IMG/VR virus record: IMGVR_UViG_3300031952_000038
Coordinates: 1 to 43,100 of that record
Reading direction: 5' to 3' (one strand)
Length of the DNA stretch: 43,100 nucleotides
Origin: a virus
Shown: one piece after another, positions 531 to 43,100 of the stretch
Position numbering within the stretch: the stretch's first letter is position 1
Layout: each line of letters begins with the position of its first letter
Program-made: the position numbers and the translations under genes
Notes under the pieces: generated by a model
What the model was told of the DNA's origin: nothing
The model's input: the letters and a program-made list of their open reading frames with translations, nothing else
The model's database searches: none

Positions 531-684
531 GTCTTTGAGGGTTTCTTCTCTGAGCAGAAGCTCCTCTTATACCTTTAGGCTTACCGAAGCCGACCTTTTG
601 GAACAAAAGGGAAAGGTTTAAGTTGGGAGTTCTGCGTGAGAAACCCCACACTTCAGTGTGACTTGTTTGGGAGTATGTCATTTT
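531..684 (-). mobile_element. Probable IS200/IS605 left end and structured tnpA leader
   Basis: This non-coding stretch upstream of tnpA contains four further short inverted repeats: CTTCT/AGAAG (545-549/556-560), GGCTT/AAGCC (578-582/587-591), CCTTTT/AAAAGG (594-599/605-610) and CACACT/AGTGTG with a 2-nt loop (647-652/655-660). The last is placed where a left-end hairpin of an IS200/IS605 element would sit. A long open frame through this region (to 681) is judged a shadow of tnpA. The exact boundary of the element is not resolved. Confidence 0.6.
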
Positions 685-1061: not shown

Positions 1062-2037
1062 GTTCTCCAGCTCTTATTAATCCAGACCACTTCCATCTAA
1101 TAATTCTTGAAGGTTTTTTGAAACTTGTCCATGCTAATTCGCAATCGGCAAAGTTATTGCTCGGGATGTCTTCTCTTTTATCCCATACGAGCCAACAGGA
1201 ACTTTCTGGCAATTTATTGGCGAAGTAATTCCCTCCGAATATTATTTGATTTTTTCCATATGATAATAAGAATTCTGGATTGAATGGTTTATCATCTCCC
1301 TCTATCATCTTATGCTTACCAACAGGAACAATTCCACCTCTACCGATGCTTCCAAATTTGTTCCTGTTGGTAGTTTTATTGTCAAAGCCGAGGCGACCAT
1401 TGCCAAAACCAATCTTTCCATCGGCTTTGACAATATTTATTCCGTATGGTGGGTCTGTTAATAACAAATCAGCTTTTTCTCCATTCATTAACTTATCAAC
1501 ATCATCACTTTTAGTGGCATCTCCACACATTAACCTATGATTTCCTAATATGAAAACGTCTCCAGTTATTATTTTTGTTTTTGACTTAGCAAGTTCATAA
1601 GCATTAGGCTCAACATCATCAACAGGAATGTTAGTCTCTCCGATTGCGTTTATTAAGATATTTATTTCTTTCTCATCAAAGCCAGTATAAGACAATAAGT
1701 CTTTGTCTTCACTTTTTATGCTCATAAGGACTGACGCTAGTTGTATATCGTCCCACTCTCCCATAATCTTGTTCAAGGCAATATTCAAGGTCTTCTTCTT
1801 TGCATCGCTCAATCCCTCAACGATTACGCAAGGATAATCTTCAAGATTTAGTTTTAATCCTGCTTCGTAACGCTGATTGCCGCCGATAATAACTCCTTCT
1901 TCGTCTATTATTAGGGGGTCTACCATTCCGAACTCCTTAATGCTATTAACAAGTTTAGTCATTTCGTCTTCGCTCATGTATCGCGGGTTGTTCTCAAAGT
2001 GCTTTAATTCATCCGGTTTCTTCATTACAATCTTCAT
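1051..2037 (-). CDS. ParB/Srx-domain DNA methyltransferase, C-terminally truncated
   Basis: The N-terminal ~90 residues are a ParB/sulfiredoxin-like domain (NNPRYM near residue 17, GGNQRYEAG near 52-60). A DNA amino-methyltransferase domain follows, with GDATK and the catalytic DPPYG (about 195-199 from the ATG at 2037). Such fusions in phages normally end with an HPTQKP segment, a SAM-binding FxGSG motif and an MExDPxYC strand. Here the frame reads IRAGERKT and stops. The expected last strand survives only out of frame just downstream (939-1061), and the HPTQKP/FxGSG part is absent. The start is the ATG overlapping the TGA of the C5-methyltransferase. Catalysis is therefore doubtful; the ParB domain is intact. 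Confidence 0.88.
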   Translation of the reverse strand: MKIVMKKPDELKHFENNPRYMSEDEMTKLVNSIKEFGMVDPLIIDEEGVIIGGNQRYEAGLKLNLEDYPCVIVEGLSDAKKKTLNIALNKIMGEWDDIQLASVLMSIKSEDKDLLSYTGFDEKEINILINAIGETNIPVDDVEPNAYELAKSKTKIITGDVFILGNHRLMCGDATKSDDVDKLMNGEKADLLLTDPPYGINIVKADGKIGFGNGRLGFDNKTTNRNKFGSIGRGGIVPVGKHKMIEGDDKPFNPEFLLSYGKNQIIFGGNYFANKLPESSCWLVWDKREDIPSNNFADCELAWTSFKKPSRIIRWKWSGLIRAGERKT

Positions 2038-2111
2038 AAAATCGTAGGCAGGATACCACAAGTTTTAACTTGTGGAGGAATGCCGTCAGTAGTAACCACT
2101 GCCACAGCATT
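2033..2111 (-). repeat. 79-bp direct repeat copy A with RE-type hairpin
   Basis: Two blocks of about 24 and 36 bases are identical to those at 42089-42167, and a central 19-20 nt stem-loop differs. On the minus strand the stem is CCACAAGTT-aa-AACTTGTGG. It encodes the last 25 residues of the C5-methyltransferase, its TGA, and the ATGAA of the ParB gene. The format (9-bp stem, AA loop) matches right-end hairpins of IS200/IS605 elements. Confidence 0.9.
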
Positions 2112-2771
2112 TTTATCCACCATAACCTCGTTTAGTTGTATCTGTTTATTCTTATAAGCACAATTCAAAACAAGTAATCCCAGCTTTGGCTCTATGCAAT
2201 TTCTGAGAATAACATCTTTCCTATGGTCTAATTCAACATTACTCAAATCAAATCCTTTGTATTCTTGCATCTCTGAAATTGTTGCATTATGTTTTCTACT
2301 TTTAATCTTAATGTTGCTTAAAGGAAAGTTAGTCCAGAAATAGTGTTTTCCTACCTCTTGTGGTTTAATCAAGGGTTCATAGTATCCGATAACATTTTCA
2401 ACGCACCACTTCCCTTTGAAATACGAAGTTAAGAGTATTATTTCTTCATACAAACGCATATCTGCATACGCTTTAGGAATTATTGTTCCACAAGTTGGGT
2501 GAGGAGCTAATGTTCCCATAAACCTCACTCTTGAATGTGTTGGACAAGGAGGACTACTCCAAATAAAATCGTATTCCTCAAAATGTTCAAGTAAATATTG
2601 GTGGGCATCAGTGACTATAACTTTATCTTGTGGAAAGAAGTCTTGATAAATCTTTGCTATTTCAGGAACATTCTCAACAGCAGTAACCTCAATATCTCCA
2701 CTCCAAAGCTTACGATTACCACCAATTCCAGCATACAAATTCAAAATCCTAATAGTCTTTTGTTCAGTCAT
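2034..2771 (-). CDS. DNA (cytosine-5) methyltransferase
   Basis: This 245-residue protein transfers methyl from SAM to cytosine C5. Motif I is NLYAGIGG (11-18), the catalytic motif IV is SSPPCPTHS (Cys76), motif VI is CVENV (ENV 125-127), and a late KHYFWTNFP motif is present. The end of the fold is RNCIEPKLGLLVLN. It is much shorter than bacterial Dcm and lacks an obvious long target-recognition domain, as in compact phage enzymes. The C-terminal NAVAVVTTDGIPP...GILPTIL comes from the 79-bp repeat, not from the methyltransferase family. The start is supported by GGAGGGT. It probably protects viral DNA from host restriction or marks it. Confidence 0.93.
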   Translation of the reverse strand: MTEQKTIRILNLYAGIGGNRKLWSGDIEVTAVENVPEIAKIYQDFFPQDKVIVTDAHQYLLEHFEEYDFIWSSPPCPTHSRVRFMGTLAPHPTCGTIIPKAYADMRLYEEIILLTSYFKGKWCVENVIGYYEPLIKPQEVGKHYFWTNFPLSNIKIKSRKHNATISEMQEYKGFDLSNVELDHRKDVILRNCIEPKLGLLVLNCAYKNKQIQLNEVMVDKNAVAVVTTDGIPPQVKTCGILPTIL

Positions 2772-2816
2772 AGTTGAATACCCTCCGCATTTAATGTGGC
2801 GGGAAGGCGTTATTCC

Positions 2817-9290: not shown

Positions 9291-9861
9291 TATTTTCATC
9301 CCTTAATATCTTCTTTATCGTATAATCTATTATGTTTGGCAAATCCTTCTTAAGCTTTTTAGTAACTCCATCAGTATAAACTTTCTTTCCAAGAACATCA
9401 AGATATTCATCAGGATGATTTTTCTGATGTTCAACTTTCCTCTGATAATAAGCTTTATGTTGAGCTTTTACTTCGGGTCTCTGACAGTAAGCCTTCTGGT
9501 AAGCCTTATGGTAAGCTTTTACTTCAGGTCTCTGATAATAAGCCTTTACTTCGGGTCTCTGACAGTAAGCCTTATGGTAAGCCTTTACTTCAGGTCTCTG
9601 ATAATAAGCCTTATTGTAAGCCTTTACTTCAGGTCTCTGATAATAAGCCTTATTGTAAGCCTTCCTTTTGGCTTTTACTTCGGGTCTCTGATGGTAAGCC
9701 TTCTGGTAAGCTTTATGGTAAGCCTTTACTTCGGGTCTCTGATAGTAAGCCTTATGGTGAGCTTTTACTTCGGGTCTCTGATGGTAAGCCTTCTGGTAAG
9801 CTTTATGGTGAGCTTTTACTTCGGGTCTCTGATAGTAAGCCTTATGGCTTTCTTTACTCAT
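9283..9861 (-). CDS. QRPEVKA tandem-repeat protein
   Basis: The 192-residue protein contains nine QRPEVKA units spaced by 9, 13 or 17 residues, joined by KAYxxKAY linkers, over residues ~8-140. Tyr, His, Lys, Gln and Ala dominate. A short unique C-terminus (PDEYLDVLGKKVYTDGVTKK, then LPNIIDYTIKKIL) follows. Repeats of the YYQRPEVKAK type occur in scattered phage proteins with no established function; basic helical repeats suggest DNA or RNA binding. Unequal exchange between units should make repeat number vary. The ATG follows GGGGGATG. Confidence 0.8.
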   Translation of the reverse strand: MSKESHKAYYQRPEVKAHHKAYQKAYHQRPEVKAHHKAYYQRPEVKAYHKAYQKAYHQRPEVKAKRKAYNKAYYQRPEVKAYNKAYYQRPEVKAYHKAYCQRPEVKAYYQRPEVKAYHKAYQKAYCQRPEVKAQHKAYYQRKVEHQKNHPDEYLDVLGKKVYTDGVTKKLKKDLPNIIDYTIKKILRDENNE

Positions 9862-34876: not shown

Positions 34877-34969
34877 TTAACCTCTTTTCTTGAGAATATC
34901 TTTTATCTGTTTCAGTTCTTCAAGAATCTGAATAAGAATCATCGTATCCGCTTGTTTGTTAAATCTCAT
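34877..34969 (-). CDS. Mini-protein, 30 residues
   Basis: The ORF MRFNKQADTMILIQILEELK ends KDILKKRG. Its ATG overlaps the end of the portal gene and GAGGTTAATTTG in its last codons is followed by the next gene. Probably a coupling ORF with a coiled-coil peptide. Confidence 0.4.
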   Translation of the reverse strand: MRFNKQADTMILIQILEELKQIKDILKKRG

Positions 34970-37900
34970 GGTATTCCGCAGTCGTGCATCTACAATTTAC
35001 GTGTATTGGAATCATTCCTCTAGCTTCTTTAATGCTGAAGATTTTTCCATCATGTTCCTTACAAGTTTTACATAATCTTCCATCTTCAGGAGCCGATATG
35101 AATTCTACTTTATCTCCTCCCTCTTCTTCTATACGCATAAGGTTTCCTTCATTAGCCAATCTTATTATCTCGGTTCTAGCTATTAACTTGCTTCTTTCCT
35201 TATCATGAATTACTTTGTCTATCCTGCTTGCTATGTATGTTATGTTGCTATCTTGAGTGAAACTGGTGCTTAGTATGTTTCTTATCATATCAATCTGCTT
35301 CTGAGTTAGGTCTGATAGGTAGTCTTTTAAAAGGTTTCTGTAACTATTGCTGTTTGCGTAATCTAGGACGAATGGGAAGCTTTTGCTTACGTCAAATCCT
35401 GCAAAAGCTTTCACGTTCATGTCATCATCGTTGCTTTTATCAAAATCATAATTCTTAGGCTTCAATTCGGGAAGACTTATTGGGTCGCTTATGTTGTATT
35501 GTTCTAGTGCGTTGCTCATGGCCTCCATGAGAGGCGCTGATAGTAATTCTTCGCTTTTGAATCTTGCTCCGCAAGCCGTGCATCTTATGTCTTCGGGCAT
35601 TTGCTCCATACTATTAAGGTATGTTAGGCTTGGTTGTCCGCAAATAGGGCAATGAATCTCATCCTTGTTACTATCGCTTTGCTGTATTATTCCTCCGTGT
35701 CCTAAGATGTTGGGGTTGGTGTCTGTATAAGGTTTTGGTTGAGAAGTCCATGGTTTAGGATTTTGTGGCTGAGAATCTGCTCCGCTTGGTCTTCTAGGCA
35801 TGCTTATTGGTTGGTCGTGATAGTATTGTCCATCATCAACACCTTTTTTAATTAAAGAATTATACCACTCTGTTGCGGTCTCTGCAGATAAGATGTCCCC
35901 CTTTTTATAATATTGGATCTGCCTCGCCACCACATAATCAACCAGGCTAATCTCACCCTTTGCAGGATCCTTCTTGAGGTACTCTTCATAATTCTGGTCA
36001 TCCACTTTGCTTTGGCCCATCTCATCTCTGGTTGGGGCCTTATTGTCTGCTGGCTTTGCAGAACTTGCTCCAATTTGCTCATGCACTGCCTCATCCTTGC
36101 TCTGGCCTGGTTTGATAGGGATGTGCTTTCCACCCACCGTGATCCATTGAACATCAGAATTAGCTCCTTTTAAAGCTGTGTTATCTTTTTTTTTTGATTC
36201 CTCAATGTAAGTTTCAAGTTCCTTCTTCTGCTCAGCAGCCATCCGCTTTACATCTTCAGAATTATCGGCTTCTAATACCGCGACAAGTTTTTTGTGTTCT
36301 CTAATCAAGTCCTCATACTTCATCTTCTTATAATCCTTTAAACCCTTCTCGCTCTTAGGCTTATCACCTTTACTCTCAGATGATTCTCTTTCTTCTTTCT
36401 GGTTAGGGGCTTGACTTTCTTCCTCATCACTCATTCCCTCACTATTTCCTTGCATCATCCTATTAGCAAGACTATTGCTTACGTCTCCTCCACTAATAGG
36501 TTCTAATCCTAGTTCTTCTCTTATCTCGTTTATCGTTTTTATTCCCATGGTTAGTTCAAGATTCCAGTTCTCAAGTCTCATCTTCTTCTCTGCCGGATCA
36601 TCATAAATGAATTGGAATTCTATGCCTTCAAATCCGAATTCCGGTATTATTCCTTTATTAATATAGGCTTCAAGTAACTTTAGAAATGGCCTTATACTCT
36701 TCCGCTTTACTAGTTCGCTTTGAGTAGCGCTAGTGGCCCTGTTTAGGTCATCAGTTATTCCTAGTTCATTAGGACTAAGACCGAAAGAAGATATTACTAT
36801 GTTAAAGTACCATTTCTGAGTCTCCAAGAATTCTAGTTCTTTCTGGCTAACGCTGAATGGTTGCCATTTCAAGTCTTTATTGACTACTGCTACTTTGTGT
36901 GGTTGGGCGCGGAATTCGTTATTCCAGTAATTCATGAAATCCTTTATTTCTGTCTCGTTAGTCTCAAGCAAACTTAATATACCGTCAGGAATGGTTGTTT
37001 CTTCAAAGAATCGCTTATTATAAAGAGTAGAATAATGTAAGCTTTTTATAATATCAAGTATGCTCTGAACACGACTGTATCCGTAGCAACTCATGCTTCT
37101 AGGATGCTCAGAGAGATAAACTATTTCTTCATCATTAAACCACATAGGATGAGCAGGAATCTGATAAGAATTATGAGTTATGATTCCATTAGCACTAAAA
37201 CAATGCACATCCGCAACATGAATATTGTAAACAATATCGGTTTTTAATTTCTTCGTGATTAGTTGTATTGGTACAAGAAATTGTGTTTCAAGCAATTGCA
37301 CCAACCCATTTCTTCCAAGGTTTTTATGAATCGTATTGAATGAAAGCTTGTCTAAATATTCCTGTGCTTTGATAGTTATTATCCAGAAACCATTGCTTTT
37401 TATAATTCTGCCTTTGAACTCGTGCTCTTTTCCTTTTGTGAAAGAAATACTGCAATATGCTCCTTGTCTCAAAAGCAAAGTTCTTAATTGCCACGCTAAA
37501 TTTCTGCTTACGGTCACGAATCCCATCTGCTTATCACTTTGGTAACCATCACCTTTATTGAAACTATTTAAAAGACAAGCCTGTTTTTCTTTTGGCAATT
37601 GCATTATCCATGCTGGTAATTTCTTGTGCTTCGCACCTTTACCAAAATAACGAGTGAATAATGAGGATATAACTTTACTAAAGAATCTGACGTGTAATAC
37701 ATTATCCTGCTGCATTCTTGAATCAGTTAATCCGAAAATGTTTCGCATGAGATAGCATATTTTATCTGCATATTCCTCTTCCAATATTGAAAGCGTAAAA
37801 TCAATCACGTTTCCTTTACTAACATAACCCTCTGCGAGAAACCACCCAGCAAGTTCCAAAAATTCGTTATCCACTTTTATTTGGTCTGGAAGATTATAAC

Positions 37901-38687
37901 ATTTAGGTAATGCTTTTCTAGTTATCCACTTCCTAATCATTGGTTGACGTTTACCATACCTTTTTATATGCAACTTATCAGCAATTTCCCAAGGCAACAA
38001 GCCTTGTTTAGATAACTTAATCGCTTCATTATATGTTGTTTTCCAATAGAATTCCTTACTACTCCTATCATACACTTCAAGCCACGCTAAATCTTGAGTA
38101 TCCATTGGTGTTTGAGAAATAAGCACGTCATCATCAGTCAATTCTCCAGCATTAATCCATTCTTCAGACCCATCTTCATTCTTAACTAAGAACGGATGTT
38201 CTTTTGTGCAAGTAATTTCGGGAACGCCTTGCGCTTTCAGAGTAACAAATTCGCCACTATATTCCCTTTTGTAATTATCAAGAACGGCGTGATATTTGCC
38301 ATCATTACCCAATACAAAGTCTTTAGTGGTTATTTCATCAGCGTTTTTAAATCCTGAACGTGTATCTATGATATTCTCTTTCGTAAGACAATATTGCCAG
38401 TATCCTTTATTGAATCCGAACTTATCAATCTCCTTCAAAAAACTAGCTCCGTCTCTGCAATAAATTTCTGTCATGGTTCTTTGACCAAAAGGCTTTAATA
38501 TAGGAGCTCCACTTTTAGGTTCTATCTCGTTGAAATCGTAGCTGTTAATATCAAAGACCTTAACCAAGACTCCAGCATCTATTTCAAGAATATCTTTTAA
38601 ACAGGCACGTATTAGTTGAGCGAAGCTTTCATGATTATGATTAGGATACTTCAAGAAATCTTTGACTATTTTGATGTTGTCGGCCAC
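34959..38687 (-). CDS. Portal - Mu-F-like head morphogenesis fusion, intein-containing
   Basis: The open frame is 1242 residues. Extein portal sequence lies before residue 100 and from 507 to ~780 (e.g. DEEIVYLSEHPRSMSCYGYS, SSFGLSPNELGITDDLNRAT). An acidic linker, a QWITVGGKHIPIKPGQ segment, a zinc ribbon (CPICG...CTACG, about 1012-1040) and a Mu-F-type domain (ARTEIIRLANEGN; RLCKTCKEHDG; PIHVNCRCT) follow. The portal forms the DNA channel. The frame begins at a GTG, but portal-like sequence continues upstream across in-frame TAA codons (see 38688-38966). Confidence 0.85.
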   Translation of the reverse strand: MADNIKIVKDFLKYPNHNHESFAQLIRACLKDILEIDAGVLVKVFDINSYDFNEIEPKSGAPILKPFGQRTMTEIYCRDGASFLKEIDKFGFNKGYWQYCLTKENIIDTRSGFKNADEITTKDFVLGNDGKYHAVLDNYKREYSGEFVTLKAQGVPEITCTKEHPFLVKNEDGSEEWINAGELTDDDVLISQTPMDTQDLAWLEVYDRSSKEFYWKTTYNEAIKLSKQGLLPWEIADKLHIKRYGKRQPMIRKWITRKALPKCYNLPDQIKVDNEFLELAGWFLAEGYVSKGNVIDFTLSILEEEYADKICYLMRNIFGLTDSRMQQDNVLHVRFFSKVISSLFTRYFGKGAKHKKLPAWIMQLPKEKQACLLNSFNKGDGYQSDKQMGFVTVSRNLAWQLRTLLLRQGAYCSISFTKGKEHEFKGRIIKSNGFWIITIKAQEYLDKLSFNTIHKNLGRNGLVQLLETQFLVPIQLITKKLKTDIVYNIHVADVHCFSANGIITHNSYQIPAHPMWFNDEEIVYLSEHPRSMSCYGYSRVQSILDIIKSLHYSTLYNKRFFEETTIPDGILSLLETNETEIKDFMNYWNNEFRAQPHKVAVVNKDLKWQPFSVSQKELEFLETQKWYFNIVISSFGLSPNELGITDDLNRATSATQSELVKRKSIRPFLKLLEAYINKGIIPEFGFEGIEFQFIYDDPAEKKMRLENWNLELTMGIKTINEIREELGLEPISGGDVSNSLANRMMQGNSEGMSDEEESQAPNQKEERESSESKGDKPKSEKGLKDYKKMKYEDLIREHKKLVAVLEADNSEDVKRMAAEQKKELETYIEESKKKDNTALKGANSDVQWITVGGKHIPIKPGQSKDEAVHEQIGASSAKPADNKAPTRDEMGQSKVDDQNYEEYLKKDPAKGEISLVDYVVARQIQYYKKGDILSAETATEWYNSLIKKGVDDGQYYHDQPISMPRRPSGADSQPQNPKPWTSQPKPYTDTNPNILGHGGIIQQSDSNKDEIHCPICGQPSLTYLNSMEQMPEDIRCTACGARFKSEELLSAPLMEAMSNALEQYNISDPISLPELKPKNYDFDKSNDDDMNVKAFAGFDVSKSFPFVLDYANSNSYRNLLKDYLSDLTQKQIDMIRNILSTSFTQDSNITYIASRIDKVIHDKERSKLIARTEIIRLANEGNLMRIEEEGGDKVEFISAPEDGRLCKTCKEHDGKIFSIKEARGMIPIHVNCRCTTAEYHEI
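37170..38390 (-). mobile_element. Intein with LAGLIDADG endonuclease in the portal
   Basis: Residues 100-506 (407 aa) form an intein. Block A begins with Cys100 (CLTKENIIDTRSG), block B is CTKEHPFLV, the endonuclease blocks are LAGWFLAEGYVS (279-290) and LLNSFNKGDGYQ (372-383), and the end is VHCFSANGIITHN followed by Ser507. All splicing residues (Cys1, TxxH, His-Asn, Ser+1) are present, so splicing should restore YWQY-SYQIP. The DOD endonuclease would home into intein-free portal genes. Confidence 0.92.
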
Positions 38688-41502: not shown

Positions 41503-41594
41503 GCTGCTGGTTCTTTTTTTCCTTTTCTTTCTGATAGTTTCTCGTCTACCATTCCGAACTCCTTAATACTAACTACAAGTTTTCTTTTGCCCAT
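41499..41594 (-). CDS. Mini-ORF carrying a ParB-domain relic
   Basis: The 31-residue ORF MGKRKLVVSIKEFGMVDEKL ends KGKKEPAA. The KLVxSIKEFGMVD stretch matches KLVNSIKEFGMVD in the ParB-methyltransferase, and 24 bases are identical (1918-1941 versus 41544-41567). It is coupled by overlap to both neighbours. It is most likely a fragment of a lost second ParB gene, maintained or not as a peptide. Confidence 0.5.
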   Translation of the reverse strand: MGKRKLVVSIKEFGMVDEKLSERKGKKEPAA

Positions 41595-41821: not shown

Positions 41822-42059
41822 TTTTATTCCTCCTTATTTTTGGTACTATTGATGTTTCTTTAAGAATATTAGCTAATTGCATTCCCAAATGTTCTGTCAT
41901 TAAGAATTTATAATTGCAATAACAAGTGCTACAATTAATTTCAACAATCACGGATTCTTCTGGTTCATGTAACTCTTTATAGATGTGTATTCCTATTTCG
42001 TGTTTTCCATTTTCTCCATATTCTGAACCTCCACTGAATAACGTTGTTTTCGTGCTCAT
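41748..42059 (-). CDS. Hypothetical protein with cysteine pair and basic tail
   Basis: The 103-residue protein has a compact first part (KHEIGIHIYKELHEPEESVI, EINCSTCYCNYKFLMTEHLG) and a very basic tail (KIRRNKNDEARRTKRRRTRK) that overlaps the next gene. Three cysteines in NCSTCYC may bind metal. GGAGG precedes the ATG. Function unknown. Confidence 0.6.
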   Translation of the reverse strand: MSTKTTLFSGGSEYGENGKHEIGIHIYKELHEPEESVIVEINCSTCYCNYKFLMTEHLGMQLANILKETSIVPKIRRNKNDEARRTKRRRTRKPQDNGKTQHN

Positions 42060-42088
42060 TTTACTTTACCTCCTTTATCCTTTTTTCG

Positions 42089-42167
42089 TTCATAAAATCG
42101 TAGGCAGGATACCCAAAGATTTATCTTTGGGAGGAATGCCGTCAGTAGTAACCACTGCCACAGCATT
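42089..42167 (-). repeat. 79-bp direct repeat copy B with RE-type hairpin
   Basis: It shares both outer blocks with 2033-2111, but the stem is CCCAAAGAT-aa-ATCTTTGGG. It encodes the last 25 residues of the PAPS-reductase-family protein and its TGA. Just downstream a 10-codon stub (MNEKRIKEVK, 42061-42093) resembles the end of the ParB-methyltransferase (HEKRIKEMN). It is a candidate right end for the tnpA element. Confidence 0.9.
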
Positions 42168-42926
42168 AGTCCTTGCCTCTACCTCCAATTCTCTTTGTTC
42201 TGGATGTTGTTTTCTCTTCAATAGTCTATAAATTTGAGGGTGGCTTTTGCTTAATACTTTCTCCCAAGTTGTATAAGCTGTGCAAGGCAAACAACCAACC
42301 CTCCTATGAACACCATTCCATTTCTGATAAACAGGATTAATTGGTAAATTATTCCTCTTTATATAATCCCAAACTTCTTCCTCTTTCCAGCTAATTATTG
42401 GGTGTATCTTCCAGATATTCCAACTTTTAGAGAAATATCTCTGTCCACAAGTTCCAATATTAATATCATCATCTCTTAAATTCTCATACTTTAAGAAAAC
42501 AAGATTTCTCACTCTACTCTCCCAACGAGTAATCCCCGTAAAAATAGCTTTTATCTTATGCTCTTTGTAAGCTATTTGAGTAGGCTTTTCTTTTAAGTAA
42601 TAACAACATTTAGGAGTATGTAACTTCTTTTTCCCTCCTCTACAAGTTGGTAATCCATACTTGTCAAGGCATTTCCAGAAAGTCATATTCTTATAGGGCT
42701 TAGTTTCAATCAAGTTAAGATTCCATAATTTAGTTATTTCTTCTTTAAATTTGATTGTTTCTGGAAATTCTACTCCAGTATTATTAAAGAAAACCTTTAT
42801 GTTCCAATTATATTTTAAAGCCATGTGAAGAACTACAAGACTATCTTTTCCAAAACTACAAGCCACCCCAATATTCTCTCCATACTTCTCAATAGATTGT
42901 TTGATTAATTCTTCTGCTTCAAACAT
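42090..42926 (-). CDS. PAPS-reductase-family protein (IbrA/DndC-like)
   Basis: About 278 residues from the ATG at 42926, chosen because GGTGAT lies six bases upstream; a GTG at 42938 is an alternative. The PP-loop is SFGKDS (24-29), followed by FNNTGVEFPETIKFKEE, TCRGGKKKLHTPKCCYYLKE, GITRWESRVRN, and RVGCLPC; the cysteines could hold an Fe-S cluster. Relatives act in sulfate reduction, DNA phosphorothioation (DndC) or, with a ParB partner, as IbrA/IbrB. No sulfate pathway genes are near; a ParB protein is. The last 25 residues come from the 79-bp repeat. Its start overlaps the tnpA stop. Confidence 0.85.
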   Translation of the reverse strand: MFEAEELIKQSIEKYGENIGVACSFGKDSLVVLHMALKYNWNIKVFFNNTGVEFPETIKFKEEITKLWNLNLIETKPYKNMTFWKCLDKYGLPTCRGGKKKLHTPKCCYYLKEKPTQIAYKEHKIKAIFTGITRWESRVRNLVFLKYENLRDDDINIGTCGQRYFSKSWNIWKIHPIISWKEEEVWDYIKRNNLPINPVYQKWNGVHRRVGCLPCTAYTTWEKVLSKSHPQIYRLLKRKQHPEQRELEVEARTNAVAVVTTDGIPPKDKSLGILPTIL

Positions 42927-43100
42927 TGGAGAAATCACCTATTTTTAGTTGTCCTTTTAAGGCTTCTGGGCAGTTGTAGACATCGTATTCAAATGGGCTT
43001 TTGCCTTCTTGTTCAAGGATGTATCTTTTTACTTGTTCTTGGCTTACATGACCTGCACTTCCACAATAGTATCCTGAAGCCCATAGGTGATTAAATCTCT
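42919..43100 (-). CDS. tnpA: TnpA, 3' part (redundant copy at window end)
   Basis: This is the C-terminal part of the same transposase, seen because the window repeats its first 127 bases. It encodes the region from just before the catalytic tyrosine to the end, finishing KIGDFSNV and TGA at 42919-42921. The stop falls inside the start region of the PAPS-reductase gene (ATG at 42926), implying translational coupling of transposase and reductase. Confidence 0.9.
   Translation of the reverse strand, partial: RFNHLWASGYYCGSAGHVSQEQVKRYILEQEGKSPFEYDVYNCPEALKGQLKIGDFSNV
42974..43100. repeat. Terminal direct repeat, copy 2 (circular overlap)
   Basis: This is an exact copy of bases 1-127. The non-redundant genome is therefore 42,973 bp and base 42973 is followed by base 1. 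Confidence 0.93.

Follow-up and report, generated by a model that had tools for sequence, protein, structure and literature searches.

How two different modification genes of one virus come to share a C-terminal tail, and why the repeat encoding this tail keeps a hairpin whose stem has changed in sequence, are the questions raised by this locus. The window, that is, the whole stretch of 43,100 nucleotides analyzed here, corresponds to a viral genome that is circular and 42,973 bp long, its ends overlapping by 127 bp (positions 42974-43100 repeat positions 1-127). Among its gene products are a terminase, a capsid protein of the SU10-like type and a portal protein that contains an intein. The intein of the portal protein (34959-38687) has a LAGLIDADG-like domain (Pfam). 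A repeat protein of the YQRPEVKAHHKA type is encoded at 9409-9846 by 39-bp repeats arranged in tandem, with 12-bp offsets.

Twin repeats with a compensated hairpin

A repeat search of the window returned two 79-nt copies (2033-2111 and 42089-42167; family D7) with 92% identity, in agreement with the earlier note. The six differences are distributed as three per stem arm, with none outside the stem, and all of them are compensated (CCACAAGTT/AACTTGTGG in one copy and CCCAAAGAT/ATCTTTGGG in the other). The compensatory stem changes claimed before were thus confirmed as three base pairs. When folded as single-stranded DNA, both copies showed the same shape and beat 200/200 shuffles, with z values of -4.2 for the 2033 copy and -3.6 for the 42089 copy. 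The identity of the two copies extends over about 28 nt on the upstream side of the core (AATGCTGTGGCAGTGGTTACTACTGAC), a stretch seen only in this window; the two ends may have exchanged sequence recently. Neither an Rfam search nor a blastn search of the repeat against phage records gave a match.

Read on the minus strand, each repeat closes an ORF with NAVAVVTTDGIPP-x5-GILPTIL. The ORFs and Pfam identified these, as proposed, as a C5-methyltransferase (2034-2771) and a PAPS-reductase-family protein (PAPS_reduct; 42090-42938). The next ATG at the 2033 copy opens a long gene, a ParB-methyltransferase of 328 codons, and that at the 42089 copy a 10-codon ORF. The idea that the repeat itself supplies the stop codon and the next ATGAA had to be abandoned: the TGA and ATGA are the insertion target, outside the mobile part, and a long next gene follows only at the 2033 copy.

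A family of hairpins at the ends of mobile elements

The core of the repeat, GGCATTCCTCC-N-GGTATCCTGCC, recurs in 26 further viral stretches and in 60 from cellular genomes; the stem differs yet is paired in nearly all of these matches. The core consists of a 3-bp outer stem, a 6x6 internal loop and a 9-bp inner stem. Among 21 distinct 38-nt cores, 93.3% of the cells were paired, compared with 67.8% in shuffled sets, and 0/500 shuffles reached the observed value. Double changes were seen at 10/12 base pairs of the structure, with a covariation score of 0.569 against 0.112. One-sided (G-U-type) stem changes were nearly absent (2 cells versus 56 with double changes), and this pattern suggests a DNA hairpin, or palindrome correction from arm to arm, rather than an RNA. 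Even the outer stem may change: in L092, L096 and L099, which were found via tnpA and not via the pattern, altered outer stems keep pairing in 3/3 cases.

The same core ends plain tnpA elements (L068, L070), iscB elements (L004, L043, L054, L065) and tnpB elements (L005, L010, L012, L015, L016, L019, L020, L025, L059, L089). The earlier note had named two observations that would speak against it, namely an intact coding domain with a conserved stem sequence and a lack of association with TnpA/TnpB genes. The stems vary with their pairing kept, and tnpA, tnpB and iscB genes are associated with the core. Two matches, in L032 and L058, look like chance and were set aside. The virus record of L014 also includes L113, where another end, with the outer stem GTGCTG/CAGCAC, lies behind methyltransferase-like and radical-SAM-like genes; just upstream, no partner end was found.

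Guide code and strand

Each hairpin of IS608 has at its 5' foot a guide of four nucleotides that pairs with the four of the cleavage site, TTAC with the guide AAAG and TCAA with the guide GAAT (PMC5934647). We derived the rule from these two pairs (site position 2 with guide position 1, 1 with 2, and 4 with 4). On the strand opposite to the genes, which is the plus strand of the window, the left ends have the layout TCAT, 14 nt, GATA, hairpin; the right ends consist of GATA, GAAA or AATA, the hairpin, 6 nt, and TCAT or TTAT. The tnpB relatives share the target TCAT and the guide GATA, and their right ends have CAAG with TGAC or AATG with TTAC, with 4-nt spacers. The code fits at 3/3 positions in 35/35 ends, including the four of the window, where 3.8 would be expected with random guides, the rule having been applied after some of the ends had been inspected. 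The spacing is credible in 34 of these 35 ends; the left end of L010 fits only at an unusual spacing.

Subterminal hairpins are present at both ends on one strand, the left ones identified by covariation and folds and the right ones, the predicted folds of which are weak on their own, by paired arms at a constant position. The guide at the foot of REP hairpins is GT[AG]G (PMC6006769); the guides seen here, GATA, GAAA, AATA, CAAG and AATG, are not of this type. A loose pattern search for changed guides gave mostly chance hairpins.

Our initial reading, like that of the earlier note, was of right ends, with the coding strand as reference. It was reversed by the guide code of IS608 together with the geometry. 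As the strand that fits the code lies opposite to the genes, we now regard the repeats as left ends, and the label "right end" is a matter of strand. The hairpin format of IS200/IS605 ends was thus correctly recognized, with the plus strand being the active one.

Two elements in the virus genome

Element 1 (1561 bp) runs across the origin, from 42094 to 42973 and from 1 to 681, and carries tnpA and the PAPS-reductase-family gene. Its target site TCAT (42090-42093, plus strand; ATGA on the coding strand) lies in the flank, with cleavage after 42093, and fits the guide GATA at 3/3 positions. The left end (42094-42167, plus strand) comprises a 14-nt spacer (42094-42107), the guide GATA (42108-42111), the hairpin (42112-42131) and then sequence common to the other copy; it is defined by the repeat, its fold, the covariation and the code. 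The cargo gene (42090-42938, minus strand; PF01507, E 1.4e-37; phrog_424) crosses the left end with its last codons and has its stop TGA within the target ATGA. On the minus strand, the 3' part of tnpA was read from the sequence at 42919-42973 (tnpA profile match at 42928-43098) and continues at 1-500, where the 5' part encodes the Y1 HUH transposase (PF01797, E 5.5e-35; IS608-type structures, E 2e-33 to 1e-20). The motifs DHLHLF and VKRYI are conserved in alignment A1, so that element 1 has a Y1 HUH TnpA with the catalytic Tyr. The tnpA proteins of the window and of five relatives form one group, the relatives being 61-63% identical to the window protein. An inverted repeat at 490-520 (TTACCACCTC / GAGGTGGTAA) overlaps the start region of tnpA and could hide its ribosome-binding site. 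The right end (640-681, plus strand) consists of the guide GAAA (640-643), the hairpin (644-671), a 6-nt spacer and the cleavage site TCAT (678-681), with a code of 3/3; its hairpin is not significant by predicted fold alone, and L008 and L092 have the same end type. The right flank opens a short ORF only.

Element 2 (2038-2813, 776 bp) carries only the C5-methyltransferase and has no transposase, and is thus non-autonomous. Its target TCAT (2034-2037, plus strand) is, on the coding strand, the ATGA at the start of the ParB-methyltransferase; cleavage falls after 2037, and the code is 3/3 with the guide GATA. The left end (2038-2111, plus strand), supported by the same four kinds of evidence, contains a 14-nt spacer (2038-2051), the guide GATA (2052-2055), the hairpin (2056-2075) and shared sequence to 2111. 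The cargo (2034-2771, minus strand; PF00145, E 3e-5) is homologous to the gene of the L022 cassette and to a gene in L097, with 47 and 58% identity (alignment A2). The right end (2777-2813, plus strand) is laid out as in the L022 cassette, with the guide AATA (2777-2780), the hairpin (2781-2803), a 6-nt spacer and the cleavage site TTAT (2810-2813), and again the code is 3/3.

The direct repeats are 2917 bp apart on the circular genome, close to the 2.9 kb given in the earlier note. They do not flank one module, since each copy belongs to its own element. The ParB-methyltransferase (1051-2061, true start about 2037, minus strand; PF02195, phrog_498) lies between the elements and is cargo of neither, although left end 1 and right end 2 would also enclose it as a possible 3.7-kb composite. 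This gene appears to be disrupted: the reading frame stops after ...WSGLIRAGERKT, and what comes next (935-1050) is a C-terminal piece typical of methyltransferases, LDRKCFMMEIDPVYCQIIIDRWEKLTG, in another frame. The segments 41544-41582 and 42057-42094 resemble pieces of the same region (repeat D12 with 1918-1956, repeat D13 with 935-972), which gives the impression of a second copy of the ParB-methyltransferase that has decayed on the far side of element 1.

Taken as a whole, the 79-bp repeats are in all probability the left ends of two IS200/IS605-family cassettes that carry modification genes and are inserted just before start codons.

Insertion at start codons

ATGA was present at the boundary in 73/78 distinct flanks. 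ORFs of at least 50 codons begin at 62% of the boundary ATGs, compared with 29% of the ATGA sites overall in the same stretches. A complete tnpB element of Selenomonas lies at the start codon of a bioB-like gene, which we take from its translation to be bioB (biotin synthase), and four relatives have an empty site. The joined flanks of this element agree exactly with L175 and L176 (GGCTTTCAT before the junction and GTCATCATATCC after it). For this tnpB relative, insertion was precise, 3' of the tetranucleotide and without target duplication. To judge from their joined flanks, the window cassettes would have been inserted with the same precision. A copy in Selenomonas consisting of the left end only precedes another gene, and in relatives without the copy the identity resumes at the ATGA.

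When the flanks of the viral cassettes in L011, L014, L027 and L029 were joined, a ribosome-binding site (SD) was again followed by a start codon at normal spacing; in L018, the upstream gene stops on the same ATGA. We searched for an empty site of the methyltransferase cassette itself and found none. Searches with the window TnpA alone and with the window terminase gave no usable relative of this virus, and thus no empty site within its own lineage. Among the relatives of L029 by terminase, the gene block is missing as a whole, which leaves no clean empty site.

It is worth noting that left-end-only or short copies also occur directly before start codons in L034 (4994-5045) in Selenomonas and at nine places in one Oscillospiraceae MAG (behind L033). 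In these genomes, the native ribosome-binding site is replaced or displaced.

Cargo between the ends

DNA methyltransferases of several unrelated families lie between the ends (the window C5-methyltransferase, L006, L008, L011, L013, L014, L018, L021, L022, L023, L091 and L097; that of L023 was called from visible motifs only). The other cargo comprises PAPS-reductase-family genes (window, L026), radical-SAM genes (L092, and L027 by similarity to L092), nuclease-like genes (L096, and L003 with PDDEXK_5) and, in L029, one unassigned gene. Cassettes with differing cargo lack tnpA in L008, L011, L022, L027 and L029; L014 keeps a C-terminal tnpA remnant, and L091 has tnpA with four further ORFs. 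In virus variants with >99% identical flanks, L003/L028 and L010/L016 differ only between fixed ends, with a PDDEXK_5 nuclease in the former and tnpB in the latter. In L097, the element lies exactly at the start codon of the homologue of the window C5-methyltransferase. A tnpA of Bifidobacterium beside a phage adenine methyltransferase proved to belong to two ordinary IS605 copies flanking the gene, which is not cargo.

There is another interpretation of these arrangements. The ends may be true IS200/IS605 ends, and the methyltransferases resident genes between separate insertions or decayed copies, which never move with the ends. The lack of an empty site for the cassette would agree with this, as would the common decay seen in tnpA remnants and left-end-only copies and the L097 element, which merely sits before a C5-methyltransferase. 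However, compact one-gene units with code-fitting ends on both sides recur in unrelated contexts, and the joined flanks give an intact gene start. L011 and L027 have identical left-end and right-end hairpins around unrelated cargo, and the same cargo families occur with and without tnpA, for example with it in L092 and without it in L027. By our own count, methyltransferases make up 12/19 cargo genes, compared with about 3-5/67 other genes of the same contigs. We therefore regard resident genes as unlikely, and cassettes that include the methyltransferases as the better reading. The module shuffling proposed in the earlier note stands to the extent that the ends double as gene ends and that differing genes lie between common ends; these gene ends are left ends.

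The hairpin in RNA and protein

The hairpin might instead be an RNA element of gene starts, in which GGAGG, hairpin and ATGA serve translation coupling or SD positioning and which was spread by recombination. A GGAGG-like stretch does precede most hairpins and ATGA follows them, and the left-end-only copies of Selenomonas stand before genes whose native SD was replaced. An RNA element would not be expected, however, to end tnpA, tnpB and iscB elements with a partner end that obeys the IS608 code, to lack one-sided changes almost entirely, or to leave the pair of element and empty site at bioB. This makes an RNA element quite improbable as the main explanation, and the hairpin of a cassette end may have a secondary role in translation.

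That the repeat codes for a C-terminal peptide with a function of its own, GIPPxxxxxGILPTIL, such as an interaction tag of modification enzymes, is scarcely credible: the two window proteins and those of L008, L014, L018, L021 and L023 have the GILPTIL-type tail in frame, but relatives with a 17-nt spacer and L006, L011, L013 and L027 read the hairpin in other frames, or the cargo stops before the hairpin DNA (L022 among these cases), conservation follows DNA blocks with stem codons changing and pairing kept, and the C5 homologues in L022 and L097 have no tail. On the sequences compared, the shared tail is the cassette end read in frame and is not conserved as protein.

Proposed mechanism

The cassette ends, the code, the target, the diversity of cargo and the empty sites of relatives are established at the level of sequence, and from them we infer that the methyltransferase cassettes are themselves mobile. 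TnpA from element 1 or from its relatives would bind the hairpins on the single-stranded plus strand, cut after TCAT on the left and after TCAT or TTAT on the right, peel out a circle and paste it after a TCAT. The predicted circle junction is ...TTAT joined to AAAATCG..., and the predicted empty site is ...CTTCAT joined to TCCTTATGCC.... Element 2 and the many other cassettes without a transposase would be mobilized in trans.

The complementary strand of TCAT reads ATGA, with which many genes begin and which is common as a stop/start overlap; a cassette would therefore land between a ribosome-binding site and a start codon. The downstream gene would retain its ATGA, and the element would usually bring an ATGA at its other end on the coding strand and adopt the displaced ribosome-binding site. 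This ATGA would begin either a short leader or, as in L008, the cargo. Cargo that is in frame, as in both window elements, would cross the left-end hairpin and stop at the TGA in the ATGA of the next gene; since its stop lies within the target, the window cargo is probably translationally coupled to that gene.

Cargo capture probably occurs by joint excision of an element before a gene and another end behind it, after which internal ends and tnpA would be lost to leave one-gene cassettes moved in trans. The arrangement in L097 suggests such a route, as a further left end behind the gene would make the C5-methyltransferase cargo. In its widest form, the hypothesis is a start-codon-targeted single-stranded cassette system of viruses. 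A single TnpA would serve a large number of one-gene cassettes without a transposase, most of them for DNA modification, and move them from one ATGA junction of an operon to another; cargo would be exchanged between fixed ends, and viruses would thereby have swappable anti-restriction enzymes while their genes stay intact. We consider this wider hypothesis about as likely to be right as wrong.

Comparison with known systems

Descriptions of IS200/IS605 elements usually comprise tnpA, with tnpB or without it. TnpB and IscB stem from these elements, and so, through TnpB and IscB, do Cas12 and Cas9. The same ends carry here DNA methyltransferases and other modification genes, many copies being without a transposase of their own. 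Such a cassette system could explain the quick reshuffling of modification genes among viruses. It also indicates that a DNA guide of 4 bases can aim insertions at start codons, giving entry to operons with no gene broken. We found no IS200/IS605 element with methyltransferase cargo in the literature; coverage of subscription papers was partial, so this is weak evidence.

The elements resemble IS608 and ISDra2 in the Y1 HUH TnpA, the subterminal hairpins on one strand and the pairing of the foot guide with the cleavage tetranucleotide (PMC5934647, PMC6006769). About 14 nt between left cleavage and guide, insertion 3' of the tetranucleotide and, in tnpB relatives, precise empty sites are further likenesses. 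They differ in that a DNA-modification, PAPS-reductase, radical-SAM or nuclease gene replaces tnpB, that many copies lack tnpA, and that the target TCAT complements an ATGA start and serves as the stop of the cargo. The tnpB and iscB elements (L089, L012, L004, L043) have the same left-end core, and the tnpB members the same target TCAT and guide GATA, but they carry an RNA-guided nuclease, and the right ends of the tnpB members are of the CAAG/TGAC or AATG/TTAC type with 4-nt spacers. Among the window ORFs inside the elements there is neither tnpB nor iscB, which membership of the IS605 or IS1341 group would call for. The published IsrB target motif, NTGA/TTGA/ATGA (PMC9581776), is compatible with ATGA.

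MITE-like non-autonomous IS605 elements likewise have two ends without a transposase and are moved in trans if at all; unlike them, cassettes of the window type carry a complete gene fused or coupled to the end. The gene cassettes of integrons, in which one promoterless gene with a folded single-stranded recombination end is moved by an enzyme supplied elsewhere, are alike in their working. The present cassettes are nevertheless not members of that system, as no integrase, attC or platform was seen in them, and they have two hairpin ends and are inserted at start codons.
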